Shown one piece after another: positions 1,957-36,827 of a DNA stretch of 64,000 nt. Position 1 is the first letter of the stretch; every line of letters begins with the position of its first letter. Where the stretch lies: positions 1 through 64,000 of the forward strand of contig CAJJBV010000004.1 of assembly GCA_905182525.1 (NCBI GenBank). Direction: 5' to 3'. The stretch is from Cryomorphaceae bacterium (GTDB taxonomy: Bacteria > Bacteroidota > Bacteroidia > Flavobacteriales_D > Parvicellaceae). The notes beneath the pieces were generated by a model that saw only the letters and a program-made list of their open reading frames with translations, was not told where the DNA came from and made no database searches. The position numbers were made by a program, and so were the translations under genes.

Positions 1957-3166
1957 CTAGCAGGCAACCCTTGAAGCTTGAGAAAGTAGAATAAGGGTAT
2001 TTAAATCCCAAAATTCCCAAGGAGCACCTTCCCCAGGATTACCAGTAACAAATGGAAATAGATTTTCTGGAGCATTATTTATTACAACACCAGAAAAATC
2101 TTGAGTTCCAATTAAATTATTTGAAGCATTTTGAGCAGCTATTGTATAGATATCATTTGTATTGTTAATAGAAATATTATTACCTAGTATATTTGCCTTT
2201 TTAACTACATCATGAGACCCGCTAATATTAGAAATTATGTTAACACCAGAAACAGAAATATTTCCGGTTGTAAACCTAGCAATAGCATCTAAGTTTCCGT
2301 GAACTGCTGCAACGGGAACATCACCTGCCTCTAGCCATGATAAATCCATAAGCATTCCTCCCATATTACAAACCATATGAACTTTGTTAGAATAGCCAAT
2401 ATTACTTGGAGTATTGTAAGCAGGATTTCCTCCATAACCATCCCAGTCACCTAAAACAGCAGTATCAAGCAAAGGCATTGCAGTTACAGGATCAAGAAAT
2501 TTAGGCAATTGTAATTCAGAAAGCTTATCAATAGTTGCATAGGCAAGTGCTATATGACCTCCAGTACCTTCACCAACTATAATTATTTTAGAGGTATCTA
2601 TTCTGTAAGTATTTCCATTTTCGTAATCCTCTCTTAAAAACCTGACGGCTGCTTTTGCATCTTGGACTCCTCTAAATACTGCTTTTAAAAAGCTAGAAGC
2701 CCTCTCTGGTTCGGTTGGTAACGTCGGATTCCATCCTAACCTATAATCCGTATTTGCAACTACATAACCTCTTTTTGCATACTCGTTACAAAACGTTTGA
2801 GTCGCATAATCAAAAGTTCTTGAACCAGTAGCATTACCATTTCTAATAATTGGAGCAAATTCCCCAGTATGTAAGTAAATAATTAATGGTCTTTCAGAAA
2901 CTGTGTCACCAGAAGGCTGAAAAATATCCATTTCTAAAGCTGGCATAGAAAATAAAATAGGAGTAGGAGGGGTTGTTGTAGTATCCAAACCAATAGGAGT
3001 TGAAGAACCAGTCGCTACTGGTAACGTCTCTCCTATAATACTGACTTGATTTACTGCATATACTATATTGTTTGTTGCGACAGTTGAATTAAATACTGGA
3101 TCTAAATATCTTGTTTGCCCAAAGCAAATTGACTGGAGCAACATAACAGTATAATACTCTCTTCAT
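1957..3166 (-). CDS. Esterase-like alpha/beta hydrolase, probable N-terminal domain of the large repeat protein
   Basis: The fold follows the carboxylesterase/BD-FAE pattern: an oxyanion-type strand (PLIIYLHTGEF, about residues 86-96), NTDYRLGWNP (131-140), a helix rich in Ala/Arg (DAKAAVRFLRED) and the nucleophile-elbow position at 191-196. There the motif is GEGTGG, so the usual catalytic Ser is Gly. Candidate Asp (HGNLDAIARF) and His (SGSHDVV) positions remain. The longest frame starts at 3144. However, an ATG at 3164-3166 follows a leader shared with two other genes here, and removing one T makes a better signal peptide (MKRVLYCMLLQSICFGQ), so I extend the start with one frameshift. The stop at 1957 also looks like a frame break, because the next frame continues QGLPASQGNASNASS into the repeat region. 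Probably exported and either non-catalytic or using another chemistry. Confidence 0.6.
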
Positions 3167-3232
3167 TTTGTAAGTTTTAAATCATCAAGTTAAGAAAAAA
3201 GCAAATCCTATTTTAAAATAATAGGTGTTATT
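3167..3232 (-). promoter_or_regulatory. Shared 5' leader, copy A
   Basis: The minus-strand sequence just before the ATG at 3166 contains TTTAAAACTTACAAAATG-type bases preceded by GCTTTTTTCTTAA and TAACACCTATTA blocks. The same blocks precede the genes starting at 36742 (nearly all of them) and 8278 (proximal part only). Such conservation in non-coding sequence suggests common expression control or recent duplication of the gene starts. No TAnnTTTG match was found inside it. Confidence 0.5.
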
Positions 3233-6200: not shown

Positions 6201-8278
6201 AATCAGTTAAAGCAGTATTTTGACTTACATCAAGGATGGTTAGTTGATTTGATAGCAATTCAAATTAGTTAAAGCAGTAAAATCTTCAATTCCTGTTAAA
6301 TCTGAAATGGTTTGGCTTGAGACATCTAAACTGGTAATACCAACTATATTGGAAGTAGTTACAGAATCGTCATTAGCTATTCCATTAGCCCATTCATTAG
6401 CTTCTAAATAGGCTTCAAAGTTATCATCAGGAACTAGGTTTGAGGAGGTACAATTAGTACTAAAATAATGTTGAGCATCAATATTTGTCCAATTGTTAGT
6501 GGAGTAAGTTACATCATCAACATTTATACAAGTTAAATTTAGATTACTTGTAACATTAAAACTAAGAAAGTTTTGATTGTTCCCATTTCTTAAATCAAGG
6601 CTTGTTAGTTGATTTGATAGCACCACAAAGTAGTTAAAGCCGTATTATTACTTACATCAAGGCTGGTTAGTTGATTATTGAGCAACTCAAACTAGTTAAA
6701 GCAGTATTTTGACTTACATCAAGACTTGTTAGTTGATTATATACCGCAATACAAAGTAGTTAAAGCCGTATTTTGACTTACATCAAGGCTGGTTAGTTGA
6801 TTTGAATAGCAATACAAAGTAGTTAATGCAGTAAAATCTTCAATTCCTGTTAAATCTGAAATGGTTTGGCTTGAGACATCTAAACTAGTAATACCAACTA
6901 TATTGGAAGTAGTTACAGAATCATCATTAGCTATACCATTGCCCATTCCATTAGCTTCTAAATAGGCTTCAAAGTTATCATCAGGAACGTAGGTTTGAGG
7001 CAATGGTGGACAATTAGTACTAAAGTAATGTTGAGCATCAATATTTGTCCAATTGTTAGTAGAGTAAGTTACATCATCAACATTTATACAAGTTAAATTT
7101 GGATTATTAGTAACATCAAATAAGAAGTTTTGATTGTTCCCATTTCTTAAATCAAGACTTGTTAGTTGATTTGATGCACCATCAAATAGTTAAAGCCGTA
7201 TTATTACTTACATCAAGAGCTGTTAGTTGATTATAGCAACTCAAAACAGTTAAAGCGTATTATTACTTACATCAAGACTGTTAGTTGATTATCATGCACA
7301 ATCAAATCAGTTAAAGCCGTATTATTACTTACATCAAGGCTGGTTAGTTGATTATGATACAATACAAATCAGTTAAAGCAGTATTATTGACTTACATCAA
7401 GGCTTGTTAGTTGATTATTATAACAATACAAATCAGTTAAAGCAGTATTATTACTTACATCAAGGCTTGTTAGTTGATTATATACAATACAAAGTAGTTA
7501 AAGCAGTATTTTGACTTACATCAAGGCTTGTTAGTTGATTAGTAACAATCAAATAAGTTAAAGCAGTATTATTGACTTACATCAAGACTTGTTAGTTGAT
7601 TATTACGACAATCAATTAGTTAAAGCAGTATTTTGACTTACATCAAGGCTTGTTATTTGATTATATAGCAATCAAATAAGTTAAAGCAGTATTTTGACTT
7701 ACATCAAGGCTTGTTAGTTGATTATTCACAATTCAAATAGTTAAAGCAGTATTTTGACTTACATCAAGGCTTGTTAGTTGATTATTCCACAATCAAATAA
7801 GTTAAAGCAGTATTTTGACTTACATCAAGGCTTGTTAGTTGATTATTACACAATTCAAATAAGTTAAAGCAGTATTATTACTTACATCAAGGCTGGTTAG
7901 TTGATTTATTGACAATTCAAATAGTTAAAGCCAGTATTATTGACTTACATCAAGGCTTGTTAGTTGATTTGATTGAGCAATCAAAGTAGTTAAAGCCGTA
8001 TTATTACTTACATCAAGACTGGTTAGTTGATTTGATTAGCAATCAAATAGTTAAAGCAGTAAAATCTTCAATTCCTGTTAAATCTGAAATGTTTGACTTA
8101 GATATCTAAACTGGTAATACGTATTAATATTGGAAGTAGTTACAGAATCATCATTAGCTATACCATTGCCCATTCCATTAGCTTCTAAATAGGCTTCAAA
8201 GTTATCATCAGGAACGTAGGTTTGTTGAGCTAAAGTTAATAGTGGAAAGCAAAGTAAAATAAGTAGAAGTTTCTTCAT
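3268..8278 (-). CDS. Giant leucine-rich-repeat protein with T9SS sorting domain (frameshifted)
   Basis: The N-terminus (8278 leftwards) has a signal peptide ending LLTLAQQ, followed by the cap TYVPDDNFEAYLEANG. The body is made of 21-residue LRR units of the type LTSLDVSQNTALTYLDC, about 45 in all. They are arranged in six modules, each opening with the VPDDNFEAYLEANG cap (near 8240, 6990, 6430, 5830, 4840 and 4200). Each module ends with a non-LRR insert with CINVDDVTYS and NNWTNID motifs. The C-terminus (3268 to about 3480) is a type A sorting domain: SLYPNPTNENITISIE ... GIYLLKV. Intact length would be about 1670 residues. The reading frame is broken many times by single-base indels, so only short frames survive. 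Likely a cell-surface or secreted adhesin or binding protein exported by the T9SS; ligand unknown. Confidence 0.75.
3690..8065 (-). repeat. 63-bp tandem repeat array encoding LRR units, in six blocks
   Basis: The unit on the plus strand reads roughly gttaaagc.gtattttgac then ttacatcaag..tggttagttgatta, repeated every 63 bases (21 codons). I count roughly 15 units in block 1 (7.15-8.05 kb), 4 in block 2, 5 in block 3, 11 in block 4, 5 in block 5 and 6 in block 6. Two in-frame versions exist, encoding SQNTALT and SNNTALT. A third, one base longer, occurs at about 4490, 4615, 7383, 7570 and 7935 and breaks the frame. Confidence 0.9.
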
Positions 8279-8325
8279 TTTGTAAGTTTTAAACCGTTAA
8301 AGTAAGAAAAAAGCAAAGTTTTTCA
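8279..8325 (-). promoter_or_regulatory. Shared 5' leader, copy C
   Basis: Immediately upstream of the LRR gene start, the minus strand reads CTTTGCTTTTTTCTTACTTT then GGTTTAAAACTTACAAAATG. It matches the proximal 45 or so bases of the leaders before 3166 and 36742, then diverges. Confidence 0.5.
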
Positions 8326-32969: not shown

Positions 32970-34616
32970 TTATTGCTTTATCACTTTCACTTCCTGAAGC
33001 TTATCACCATAAGCAACTTTAAGAAGATAAATTCCTCTTGCATAATCTTGTAAACTAATGGTAGTTTCATTGGTGTTTGAAGCTCTATTTCCAATTAAAT
33101 CATAATACTCAGTTTGTATGTTTCCATTGAAGTTTTCTATGCTAATTGTAATGTTTTGATTCGTTGGATTTGGAAATACTTTAACAGTATTAATTTTTTT
33201 ATTTATAACTGAGGATGGTGACTGCCCGTTTTCTACAATATTAGATCTTGATGTATTGAAAGATTTTGATGGATCACAGTTATAGCTACTCACAACTTCA
33301 ATTTGGTAATATAATTGTCCACTTGGTGCAGTTAAGTCTGTATATGAATTTAAGTTACTTGCTATGGTAGTTAAAAGAACCATATTATTAGAACTTAATC
33401 CTCTATAGATATTGTAACTAGGATAAGTAAACCCTTCATAGCCAGACCATATTAAATTCCATGCTGATCCAATTCCTTGATTAATTGTTAAATGAATGGT
33501 TTTATGAAAGTCTCCTAAATCAGACTCAACTCCGCAGGAGTCAACCGCAGAAAGCTTGTAACTGTAGGCTTGAACAGCTGGATTAGAAGAAACATCGTCA
33601 AAAACAGCAGTATCATTATAGGCAGTTCCTCCAATTTTTTGATAAATATTGGCTTGGTTGGTTTCTTTATAAACATAAAAAGAATCTATAGCTGTTGAAT
33701 TAGGATGTTCCCAAACAACTCTATTAAAATTAGCTTGAGGATTTACTCCAACTATACAAACATCTGGTGGTTGTACAAATGAAGCATTTACATTAAATGG
33801 GAGTGATGTAGAAGCACATCCCCCACTGTTAGTAACAGTAACAGAATAACTACCAGAGCTAGTAATAACTTCCGATGAAGATGTTCCCCCACTTGACCAA
33901 GAATAAGTAGCAAAATTATTAGGAACTGATAATGTTACAGAACTTGCTTGACATGGCACAAATGATCCACTAGATGTAATAAAAGGAGGATTTGGAGTTG
34001 GTGCTACTGTTACCGATATATCATTAGAAACTTCAGGACAACCATTTTGAGAAATTAATACTGAATAGTTGCCAGATTGAGTTGGGTAATAAATAGAATC
34101 TACAGCACCTGGAATATAAGTTCCATTTAATCTCCATTGGTAGCTAAAAGTAGGATCTGTATTACAAGTTAAAAATATGGAATCGCTCAAACAAGCAGTA
34201 ATTGGACCAGTTTGATTAATTGTAGAAGCATGAGTACAGCTTGTACCACCAGCGCAAAAGATGAAATCGTCTTTAAACATGGTATCTGTACACCCAGTAA
34301 GAATATTTTCAGCAATTAGAGTAACATCGTAAAGTCCATTATTTAAAAATTGATGAAAAACACTAGCATTGTTGCTTTGAAGAATAGTACCATCACTAAA
34401 GTCCCAAGTAAAGTTGTAGTTAGATGGATTAGGAGTGGTATTGGTAAACTGAGCAGCAAAAGGTGGAGCAGTAAATAAGGTCTGGTTAACAGTAAAGTCT
34501 GCATTAAACTGGTTAGGATTTATTGTTAAATTAAGAGTAACTATACTATCACAACCAGCAGCAGTTTTGAATAGTATAAGTAGCAGAATTATTACTAAAA
34601 GAGTAAGTATTGCCAT
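32970..34616 (-). CDS. C-terminal part of mosaic surface protein: PKD, Ig-like, fibronectin-like and T9SS sorting domain
   Basis: This frame is the C-terminal third of a gene that starts at 36742. Its apparent start (34616) is artificial, because one extra C near 34564 shifts TIQNAAGCDSIVTLNLT out of frame (compare copy 1 at 1564). In order it holds a SprB-like end (GCDSIVTLNLTINPN), a PKD domain (NFTWDFSDGTILQSNN), Ig-like domains with Cys pairs, a fibronectin-like segment (FNRVVWEHPNSTAIDSFYVY) and a type A sorting domain (VFPNPTNQNITISIE ... GIYLLKV) ending at 32970. The first 1.3 kb duplicates 241-1563. Likely exported by PorV/PorU and attached to the cell surface. Confidence 0.75.
   Translation of the reverse strand: MAILTLLVIILLLILFKTAAGCDSIVTLNLTINPNQFNADFTVNQTLFTAPPFAAQFTNTTPNPSNYNFTWDFSDGTILQSNNASVFHQFLNNGLYDVTLIAENILTGCTDTMFKDDFIFCAGGTSCTHASTINQTGPITACLSDSIFLTCNTDPTFSYQWRLNGTYIPGAVDSIYYPTQSGNYSVLISQNGCPEVSNDISVTVAPTPNPPFITSSGSFVPCQASSVTLSVPNNFATYSWSSGGTSSSEVITSSGSYSVTVTNSGGCASTSLPFNVNASFVQPPDVCIVGVNPQANFNRVVWEHPNSTAIDSFYVYKETNQANIYQKIGGTAYNDTAVFDDVSSNPAVQAYSYKLSAVDSCGVESDLGDFHKTIHLTINQGIGSAWNLIWSGYEGFTYPSYNIYRGLSSNNMVLLTTIASNLNSYTDLTAPSGQLYYQIEVVSSYNCDPSKSFNTSRSNIVENGQSPSSVINKKINTVKVFPNPTNQNITISIENFNGNIQTEYYDLIGNRASNTNETTISLQDYARGIYLLKVAYGDKLQEVKVIKQ
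33241..34563. repeat. Long direct repeat, copy 2 (PKD/Ig-like module)
   Basis: Matches 241-1563, with an apparently perfect core of about 830 bases at 33733-34563. After the shared part, copy 2 ends in a sorting domain while copy 1 runs into further SprB-like repeats. The switch lies at the codons for NIVENG near 33225. Confidence 0.85.
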
Positions 34617-36131
34617 CTATCCAAGTGTAAGAACTACATGAAATACTATCAGTTCCATATAATGAGTTAATAATAACTGTATCTGAGACATTACATTGAT
34701 TATATTAAAATAAATTCCCCATTCACAAATAAATCCATCGTCTATTGCAAAATTATCTCTTACAGTTAATGTCCATGTACCATTTACTGGACACCCCACT
34801 AAAGCAGGTAAATATGATTCTTCCGGCTCATATAAACCAGGAACAACCATAATACCACCTGATGGTCCAGATGCGGCAGTAGTGTTGTATCCGTTAACGA
34901 AAGCAGGCATTGCACTACTTAAATTTGAAAAACAGTATTGCTCACAAACACCAACATTTCCTGTATTATCATCAAATGCACCACCAAGAAATGTACTTCC
35001 TCCACCAAAACCACCAGGAAACAACCCGCCAGCAGTAATAGAACTATTAAAAATATTAACACTTTGTCCAGAGGGACAAGTTAGTTTCATTTCTAAATCA
35101 CCTAAAAAAGAATGTTCCATTTTTACACACATTTTTTCAATATCATTTGGATTTTGAATTGTAGCTCCTGGTAGAAATCCAGAAATAGTAATATCAGTAG
35201 TATAGTTTGTTCCCGAACCATCCGGTAAATAAGTTAAACTACCAAAAACCACACTATCCAGAGAATTTAAAGATGCGGTTACATAGTAAACTCCTGGGGA
35301 GGTTACTAATCTCGTTTCATTTACACTACTATCATCCCATAAGTACGTATTAAATCCAGAGCCAGCATCTAAAAAATAACTATTACTAAAACATAAATTA
35401 GTATCTGGTCCAAGGTCTACGTTTAGTACGTCTATCACCATATTATCAATAGCGGTACATCCATTGACATAAGTTCCAGTAACAGAGTAAGTCCCAACTG
35501 TACTAGTAATTAAAGTTTGATTAGTAGAACCATCGCTCCACAAGTAAGAAGCAAAGCCTGTTCCAGCGTCTAAAGTTTGTGTAGACCCCTCGCAAATTAA
35601 AGTAGTGTCTGGACCTAAATCTAATGAGTTAGAGCCACTAGTAACCGTAATAAAACCTGTTTTGGTTTCACTATCGCTTCCAGTACTAGTAGTAACTGTG
35701 AGAGAAACATCGTAAGTTCCAACTGATGCATAAGTATGAGTTAGGTTTTGTAAACTAGAAGTAGTACCATCGCCAAAGTCCCATGACCAAGCAGTTGGTA
35801 TTCCTGTAGATAAATCTGTGAATGTAACGCTGGTTCCTTGGCAAAAAGTAGAATCACTAGCAGAAAAATCGGCAGTTAAAGAAGAAAACAAAGCACAGTC
35901 GTTACTAAAACTAATATGGCTATCAATATTAGTCCAATTAGCATTAGAATAAGCAATATCATCTACAGAAATACAATTTAAGTTGGGATTTCCGACAGCG
36001 TTGAAAAAGGAAAAATTTATATTATTTCCATTTCTTACATCTAAACTCGTTAGTTGATTATTGTAGCAATAAAGATTAATCAAAGCAGTATTATTACTGA
36101 CATCTAAACTCGTTAGTTGATTTGATTGCAA
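34617..36131 (-). CDS. Middle part of mosaic surface protein: LRR units, PKD, Ig-like and P-domain-like
   Basis: This frame continues the gene begun at 36742. It holds two LRR units (NQLTSLDVSNNTALINLYC), the LRR-end insert (CISVDDIAYSNANWTNID), and a PKD domain (AWSWDFGDGTTSSLQNLTHT, about residues 112-131). Two Ig-like repeats follow (LDLGPDTTLICEG; VDLGPDTNLCFSN). Then comes a segment like the proprotein-convertase P-domain (KMEHSFLGDLEMKLTCPSGQ; NGTWTLTVRDNFAIDDGFI). The frame fails near 34695, but the shifted frame continues CNVSDTVIINSLYG ... SYTWIDGNTYS into the next segment. P-domains usually accompany secreted proteases or adhesins; no catalytic domain is seen. Confidence 0.7.
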   Translation of the reverse strand: MQSNQLTSLDVSNNTALINLYCYNNQLTSLDVRNGNNINFSFFNAVGNPNLNCISVDDIAYSNANWTNIDSHISFSNDCALFSSLTADFSASDSTFCQGTSVTFTDLSTGIPTAWSWDFGDGTTSSLQNLTHTYASVGTYDVSLTVTTSTGSDSETKTGFITVTSGSNSLDLGPDTTLICEGSTQTLDAGTGFASYLWSDGSTNQTLITSTVGTYSVTGTYVNGCTAIDNMVIDVLNVDLGPDTNLCFSNSYFLDAGSGFNTYLWDDSSVNETRLVTSPGVYYVTASLNSLDSVVFGSLTYLPDGSGTNYTTDITISGFLPGATIQNPNDIEKMCVKMEHSFLGDLEMKLTCPSGQSVNIFNSSITAGGLFPGGFGGGSTFLGGAFDDNTGNVGVCEQYCFSNLSSAMPAFVNGYNTTAASGPSGGIMVVPGLYEPEESYLPALVGCPVNGTWTLTVRDNFAIDDGFICEWGIYFNIINVMSQIQLLLTHYMELIVFHVVLTLG

Positions 36132-36742
36132 CTCAAATCAGTTAAAGCGGTATTTTGACTTACATCTAAACTCGTTAGTTGATTAATTGCAACCAAACTA
36201 GTTAAAGCAGTAAAATCTTCAATTCCTGTTAGGTCGGAAATATTTTGACTATTTACATTTAAAATGGTATACTCCACTAATATTGGAAGTAGTAACATAA
36301 TCATCATTAGCTATACCATTGCCCATATTCATTAGCTTCTAAATAGGCTTCAAAGTTATCATCAGGAACGTATGTTTGGTGAGTATAGTGAATTTACAGT
36401 TACACTACCTACCATCCCACTAGCAGCATGAGAGCCTACTGAACAATCGTAGTTATATGTTCCAGCAACAGTAAATTTATATGCAAAAATAACAGCTCCT
36501 AATGTACTAGTTGCTGGAGAATCAAAAGTTACTGGATTATTAAATGGTTGTCCAGTTATAGAATTAATATTTCCATTAACATCGTGATATCCGCCATCAT
36601 TAATCCAAATTACAGAATCACCAACATCTATAGTTAATGAACTTGGAGTATAGTAATAACTGCCAGTATTAATTGTATAGGTATTTTGTGAATATAATCC
36701 AGTATTAATAATAAGAAAAATTGCAAATAATATCTTCTTCAT
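36113..36742 (-). CDS. N-terminal part of mosaic surface protein: signal peptide, blue-copper cupredoxin, LRR cap
   Basis: The N-terminus is a signal peptide (FAIFLIINTGLYSQ) followed by a plastocyanin/azurin-like domain of about 100 residues. All four type 1 copper ligands are visible: H53 (GGYHDV) and C100, H105 and M110 in YDCSVGSHAASGM. At 36362 the frame breaks by one base. The next frame continues QTYVPDDNFEAYLEAN and DLTGIEDFTALTSL, the cap and first LRRs of the kind found in the 3.3-8.3 kb gene. The whole gene (36742 to 32970) would encode about 1250 residues. The copper domain may act in electron transfer or metal binding at the cell surface. Fusion to LRR/PKD modules is unusual to my knowledge. 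Confidence 0.75.
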
Positions 36743-36803
36743 TTTGTAAGTTTTAAACCATCAATTTAAGAAAAAAGTAAATCCTAATTAAAATTAATAG
36801 GTG
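36743..36803 (-). promoter_or_regulatory. Shared 5' leader, copy B
   Basis: The minus strand carries TAACACCTATTA, an A/T spacer, TAGGATTTACTTTTTTC and TTTAAAACTTACAAAATG. It nearly matches the leader before 3166 along its full length, and the proximal part of the leader before 8278. Confidence 0.5.
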
Positions 36804-36827
36804 TTAATAGGTAAGTTCACCTATTAA
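36804..36827. promoter_or_regulatory. Perfect 9-bp inverted repeat upstream of the cupredoxin gene
   Basis: ttaataggt and acctattaa flank the 6-base spacer aagttc. A direct copy of ttaataggt also lies just before it (36794-36802, taggtgttaataggt context). No T-run follows on the minus strand, and the A-run lies on the plus-strand 3' side, so it does not look like a terminator for either neighbour. An operator is possible. Confidence 0.35.

Follow-up and report, generated by a model that had tools for sequence, protein, structure and literature searches.

A plastocyanin-like domain heading a frame-broken, probably mosaic T9SS-type cargo gene with leucine-rich repeats in a Cryomorphaceae bacterium

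A cupredoxin head on a probable modular cargo gene

In the DNA analysed here (the window: positions 1 to 64,000 of contig CAJJBV010000004.1, assembly GCA_905182525.1, from a Cryomorphaceae bacterium), a broken gene of the kind encoding cargo of the type 9 secretion system (T9SS) lies on the minus strand at 36742-32970, with its start codon at 36742 and its last sense codon ending at 32973, as the original prediction from the sequence had placed it. With a probability of roughly 0.6, we consider it to be one modular cargo gene, broken in frame mainly by consensus errors in repeats, and a recombination mosaic that displays a type 1 copper site. Its product would leave the cytoplasm by Sec and cross the outer membrane through the T9SS by means of its C-terminal sorting domain, to remain on the cell surface or to leave it; a stalk of leucine-rich repeat (LRR), PKD, Ig-like, and P-domain modules would bear, at its far N-terminal end, a type 1 copper domain resembling plastocyanin. 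All sequences were used unaltered in every base, joined translation pieces serving only as search queries; G000 denotes this genome, other G numbers its relatives, C numbers contigs, and L numbers loci.

The first piece of the gene (36742-36365, 126 amino acids) comprises the predicted signal peptide (MKKILFAIFLIINTGLYSQ, 36686-36742), recognized from the sequence, forming an N-terminal helix in the structural model and ending at a putative cleavage site, followed by a plastocyanin/azurin-type cupredoxin domain (36392-36685). A profile search matches the domain to PF00127 (E 3.8e-9; 37.3 bits, cut-off 21.2), and its AlphaFold2 model (predicted local distance difference test score, 90.2) has a predicted Greek-key cupredoxin fold that superposes on plastocyanin 1pcs with a Z of 13.8 and a root-mean-square deviation of 1.4 over 88 aligned residues; the solved structures closest by sequence in the PDB are plastocyanins (E 2.2e-6). 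The four copper ligands had been assigned to the correct positions (H53, C100, H105, and M110) and align with those of plastocyanin; profile, fold prediction, and ligands all agree with the proposed blue-copper domain. Within an alignment of 47 sequences, the first three ligands are invariant and M110 is retained in at least 90%, and 80 of 81 related frames keep all four, the axial Met included, with unchanged spacing. The domain is not plastocyanin proper, scoring 34.8 against the equivalog TIGR02656, far under the cut-off of 87.85. It shares with the plastocyanin/azurin family (nearest folds, cyanobacterial and algal plastocyanins 1pcs and 2plt) the predicted fold, the H...C...H...M ligand order, and the GMVG after the last His loop, but it forms part of a T9SS-tailed surface protein and not of a soluble carrier. 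Type 1 copper domains are mainly known as soluble or membrane-held electron carriers.

After the cupredoxin follow, in order, an LRR N-cap (TYVPDDNFEAYLEAN) with LRR units (35895-36375, in three frames), a first PKD domain (35643-35864), two Ig-like repeats (GPDT..., 35255-35640), a P-domain segment (34703-35249), a short repeat (...SSYTWIDGNTYSFSNNSATYTIQN..., 34552-34712, in another frame), a second PKD domain (34302-34478), a weakly Ig-like block, a stretch matching nothing assigned, and a T9SS type A C-terminal sorting domain (32982-33179). Several modules of the original prediction were borne out by Pfam, namely both PKD domains (PF18911, E 2.6e-17; PF00801, E 1.9e-8), the P-domain-like segment (PF01483, E 2.6e-9; 37.5 bits, curated cut-off 21), and the sorting domain, which exceeds two curated cut-offs (PF18962, 35.7 against 27; TIGR04183, 31.3 against 23). 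The LRR assignment is weaker, drawing on a repeat pattern plain to the eye, an internalin-like match (1.4e-8), and LRR paralogs in the genome, and it stays under the Pfam cut-offs (LRR_4, 23.3 against 27, in three stretches; LRR_EndoS, 25.2 against 27.9). The Ig-like repeats, assigned by eye, remain putative, Pfam giving no significant match and Ig_7 an E of 0.0016, below its cut-off; the short repeat originally labelled "SprB-like", searched as a 74-residue piece, gave no match to a Pfam family (E up to 1). The genome carries a T9SS core gene (SprA_N, E 4.2e-158, in a 2472-residue open frame) and 77 sorting-domain matches.

The cupredoxin frame stops at 36364-36362, and at the junction (36365-36393) the cupredoxin and LRR-cap frames are both open and would be joined by one frame change. 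Two genes might accordingly be supposed, one for a small cupredoxin protein and the next for an LRR/PKD cargo, misread or misassembled as one, the more so as small stand-alone cupredoxin-tail genes occur in this genome (C4:235122, 205 residues) and in relatives, and as the LRR fusion is seen in no relative. However, the 126-residue cupredoxin piece lacks the sorting tail carried by its small stand-alone counterparts in the genus, and no frame gives the LRR part a start or a signal peptide, whereas in the LRR paralog that begins at window 8278 a signal peptide directly precedes the same cap. Since, in addition, the cupredoxin and LRR frames overlap where they meet, a single gene is the better reading and two genes are quite improbable. 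Chimeric assembly was discarded as the leading explanation, no other locus being near-identical to either the cupredoxin or the LRR DNA, so that neither was simply copied in. Three observations thus support the proposal of a single, copper-headed modular T9SS cargo: the LRR part lacks a start, the cupredoxin lacks a tail, and in same-genus relatives a cupredoxin head and a T9SS tail share one intact frame.

Frame breaks and probable mosaic origin

In the present assembly, the signal peptide and the sorting domain are separated by at least six net frame changes, four within 36393-36113 (about 280 bases; one at 36393-36365, and at least three more through the LRR part down to 36113) and two within 34712-34552, one at each side of the short repeat; a likely compensated pair near 36190-36170 comes in addition. 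The three or four single-base breaks counted originally were too few, and the joined protein is for this reason one that we infer. Both break zones consist of DNA repeated in the genome (LRR arrays C4:3268-8240 and C6:139734-143842; block C4:225-1642), the C6 array reaching a contig end and the C4 block lying at a contig start. In the near-identical block pair (98% overall), single-base differences fall at ~34632 and ~34563 in the copy at the locus and at ~33733 in the other, each copy having single-base indels where its counterpart has none. Of the five further cupredoxin paralogs in the genome, four (C1:101605, 199977, 204729, and 212443) are broken and one (C4:235122) is intact, while the eight copies that match best in relatives are all intact. 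Most of the remaining repeat-type cargo paralogs are likewise broken, unlike the single-copy genes, of which the 2472-residue SprA is the clearest intact case, and most genes of the window are intact frames. Judged from these sequences, consensus error in repeated DNA is the likeliest, though unproven, cause of the breaks. Similar damage is seen in the first 8 kb of the contig (window 77-8296), which holds more T9SS cargo (LRR arrays, a PKD/Ig block, and a sorting tail), heavily frame-broken, together with the near-identical copy of the C-terminal block at 225-1642, and in a tandem LRR-PKD cargo (G000:C6:137000-143842) with many frame changes that runs up to a contig end.

The substitutions between copies fall mostly at third codon positions. 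They number 0/0/12 at the first, second, and third positions in the P-domain (compared with G000:C1:74429-74975), 5/3/12 in the C-terminal block, and from 8/4/17 to 15/10/20 between the cupredoxin and each of its paralogs in the genome (49/25/101 summed over five comparisons). The modules have therefore been under protein-level selection, which speaks against long-standing decay. This bears on the possibility that the locus is a genuine pseudogene: a recombination-built copy of a cargo gene that no longer has its frame and is degenerating, serving at most as a module donor for gene conversion with its paralogs. Such a fate would fit the large number of indels (four surround a single junction), the broken state of the paralogs C1:204729 and C1:212443 and of the LRR arrays, and the near-identical blocks common to other loci. 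Yet stops arise only through frame changes, the bias is strict in the P-domain (12 of 12), and the indels concentrate in repeated DNA while single-copy genes of up to 2472 residues are intact; we regard a pseudogene as rather unlikely.

Several parts of the gene have counterparts elsewhere in the genome. The cupredoxin is 85-92% identical to five paralogs, the LRR/PKD part 81-91% identical in DNA to the two LRR arrays named above, and the sorting tail 86-94% identical to four loci. The P-domain is 98% identical to its copy in the gene at C1:73.4-75.7 kb, in which a cupredoxin match was not found, and the C-terminal block (33226-34643) matches C4:225-1642 at >99% over ~1.2 kb, with two substitutions between ~34590 and ~33330 and others at the block ends. 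Constant ends with exchanged middles fit recombination among cargo genes, and the locus would be a mosaic arising among cargo genes of one genome that have a shared leader, similar tails, and interchangeable middles. The leader core (TTTAAAACTTACAAAATG, 36740-36757) is an 18-nucleotide sequence ending in the start codon and standing ahead of otherwise different genes, with 10 exact copies and one with a single mismatch genome-wide, compared with none for the reversed control. Its sites include window 3164-3181, 8276-8293, and 36740-36757, G000:C4:234130-237131 (five copies lie within 3 kb of C4), and G000:C3:338423 and 342713; with at most one mismatch it is present in 8 of the 11 genomes of the genus. 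Conservation extends further upstream in several copies, and the whole leader region (36740-36815), common to other genes of the genome, is a candidate shared promoter/5' untranslated region or cassette-like leader. A perfect inverted repeat, AATAGGT-GAACTT-ACCTATT (36806-36825), between the end of the neighbouring gene and the start codon, is possibly an operator or terminator element.

Cupredoxin-headed relatives and the LRR pairing

A cupredoxin match is present in 73 of 150 relatives. The genus contains intact frames of 1462, 1395, 1174, 811, and 751 residues with a cupredoxin head and a T9SS tail; in the three longest (L119, L148, and L138), the cupredoxin directly follows the signal peptide and precedes a large modular body, as in the present locus, but these bodies consist of lamin-tail/CBM48-type repeats and not of LRR, PKD, and P-domain modules. 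Among the 81 cupredoxin frames from named genomes, 46 have at least 500 residues, 52 carry the domain N-terminally, and 20 contain a fasciclin motif. In marine Flavobacteriales, the domain is found in these genomes with a tail only, joined to between one and five fasciclin domains, within lamin-tail proteins, and at the head of CBM48/lamin-tail proteins; the cupredoxin-fasciclin proteins (L125, L137, L150, and L153) are secreted proteins headed by the same cupredoxin, differing in their partner. The original view of the architecture as an unknown one is thus not supported, large T9SS cargo headed by or containing a cupredoxin being common in this group, and the cupredoxin is not always a separate gene in relatives, as these intact frames demonstrate.

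The novelty claimed for the locus narrows to the LRR pairing. The LRR cap occurs in none of the 81 frames, and a query spanning the junction found no cupredoxin and LRR in one frame in 38 other genomes of the family, among the matches listed for 398 other genomes of the order, or in 394 other genomes of the phylum; an intact fusion in relatives, which had been proposed as a supporting check, was hence not found. Junction-spanning candidates were set aside, those in G013 (1-146) and G345 (1-154) being frames of 205-239 residues that run into a sorting tail, and that in G239:C40 (8-157, 735 residues) being fasciclin-like by motif. The relatives surveyed and the absence of a fusion from these searches show the head position to be ordinary in the group and the LRR partner not. 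The LRR module itself has relatives of its own, T9SS cargo with the same cap, units, and PKD (window 8278-3271, which also has the same leader; G000:C6 from 139668; G009:C10, a 1426-residue frame), in which the LRR cap comes straight after the signal peptide and the cupredoxin is absent.

Several points weigh against one intact cargo gene bearing a copper site. As no searched genome has cupredoxin and LRR in one frame, the proposed fusion depends on this broken locus. The cause of the breaks is judged from the assembly alone, so that a real loss of frame is possible, and four or more frame changes within about 280 bases is a high density for an assembly that has been polished. Because a near-identical copy of the C-terminal block lies at a contig end, this block may have been misassembled locally. 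Copper binding and redox activity of the head are deduced from the sequence, and its ligand loop is C-x4-H-x4-M, compared with C-x2-H-x4-M in the aligned plastocyanins.

Putative function and gene surroundings

Most likely, with modest confidence on such sequence grounds, the head binds copper and acts at the surface in redox chemistry or copper handling, while the LRR and P-domain parts attach to partners or surfaces. A purely structural or binding role of the cupredoxin fold, devoid of copper or redox chemistry, would be conceivable for one exchangeable module among adhesion-type domains, and no redox gene is adjacent, the neighbours being urocanate hydratase-like and short-chain dehydrogenase genes by eye. 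However, the retention of all four ligands in 80 of 81 frames, at the same spacing and with the axial Met, goes beyond the needs of a scaffold and argues for a working metal site; we therefore think a structural role alone rather unlikely.

The surroundings of related genes offer further observations. A cupredoxin-family gene lies near rhodopsin, photolyase-related, and SOUL genes at L120; a cupredoxin-fasciclin gene stands beside MerR, photolyase-related, SOUL, and carotenoid-type genes at L128; and a SelR/MsrB gene lies directly upstream at L143 and, by clustering, at several related loci. Loci of these types are not independent, because some come from close relatives. The present genome has a rhodopsin gene, distant from the locus. 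Photolyase-like genes are described as accompanying proteorhodopsin in flavobacteria, with no mention of the copper domain (PMC2668756). A link of the cupredoxin-tail and cupredoxin-fasciclin genes of marine Flavobacteriales to light or oxidative stress is possible. A MerC mercury-resistance gene (L153:5327-5773) lies near a cupredoxin-fasciclin gene, similar open reading frames being found by clustering at five other loci, and the intact cupredoxin-tail paralog is immediately followed by a gene whose product resembles, by eye, an exported ring-cleavage dioxygenase (L227:7783-8769; G000:C4:235782-236768).

In the open-access full texts searched, with few subscription papers covered, cupredoxin and T9SS occurred together in one paper, which concerns unrelated genes, and neither plastocyanin with T9SS nor a cupredoxin-LRR T9SS architecture was found. 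This near-absence suggests that the secreted cupredoxin family is undescribed in these texts, and the locus is apparently a new domain combination in a common, apparently undescribed kind of secreted copper protein. More speculatively, and with low confidence, T9SS-exported type 1 copper domains may serve marine Flavobacteriales as exchangeable redox or copper-handling heads, partly linked to light or oxidative stress, a repertoire that this locus would extend to an LRR adhesin that brings copper chemistry to the partner or particle it binds. Altogether, the recurrence in ocean bacteria of large surface proteins bearing T9SS-tailed type 1 copper domains with intact ligands would place copper or electron chemistry outside the cell.

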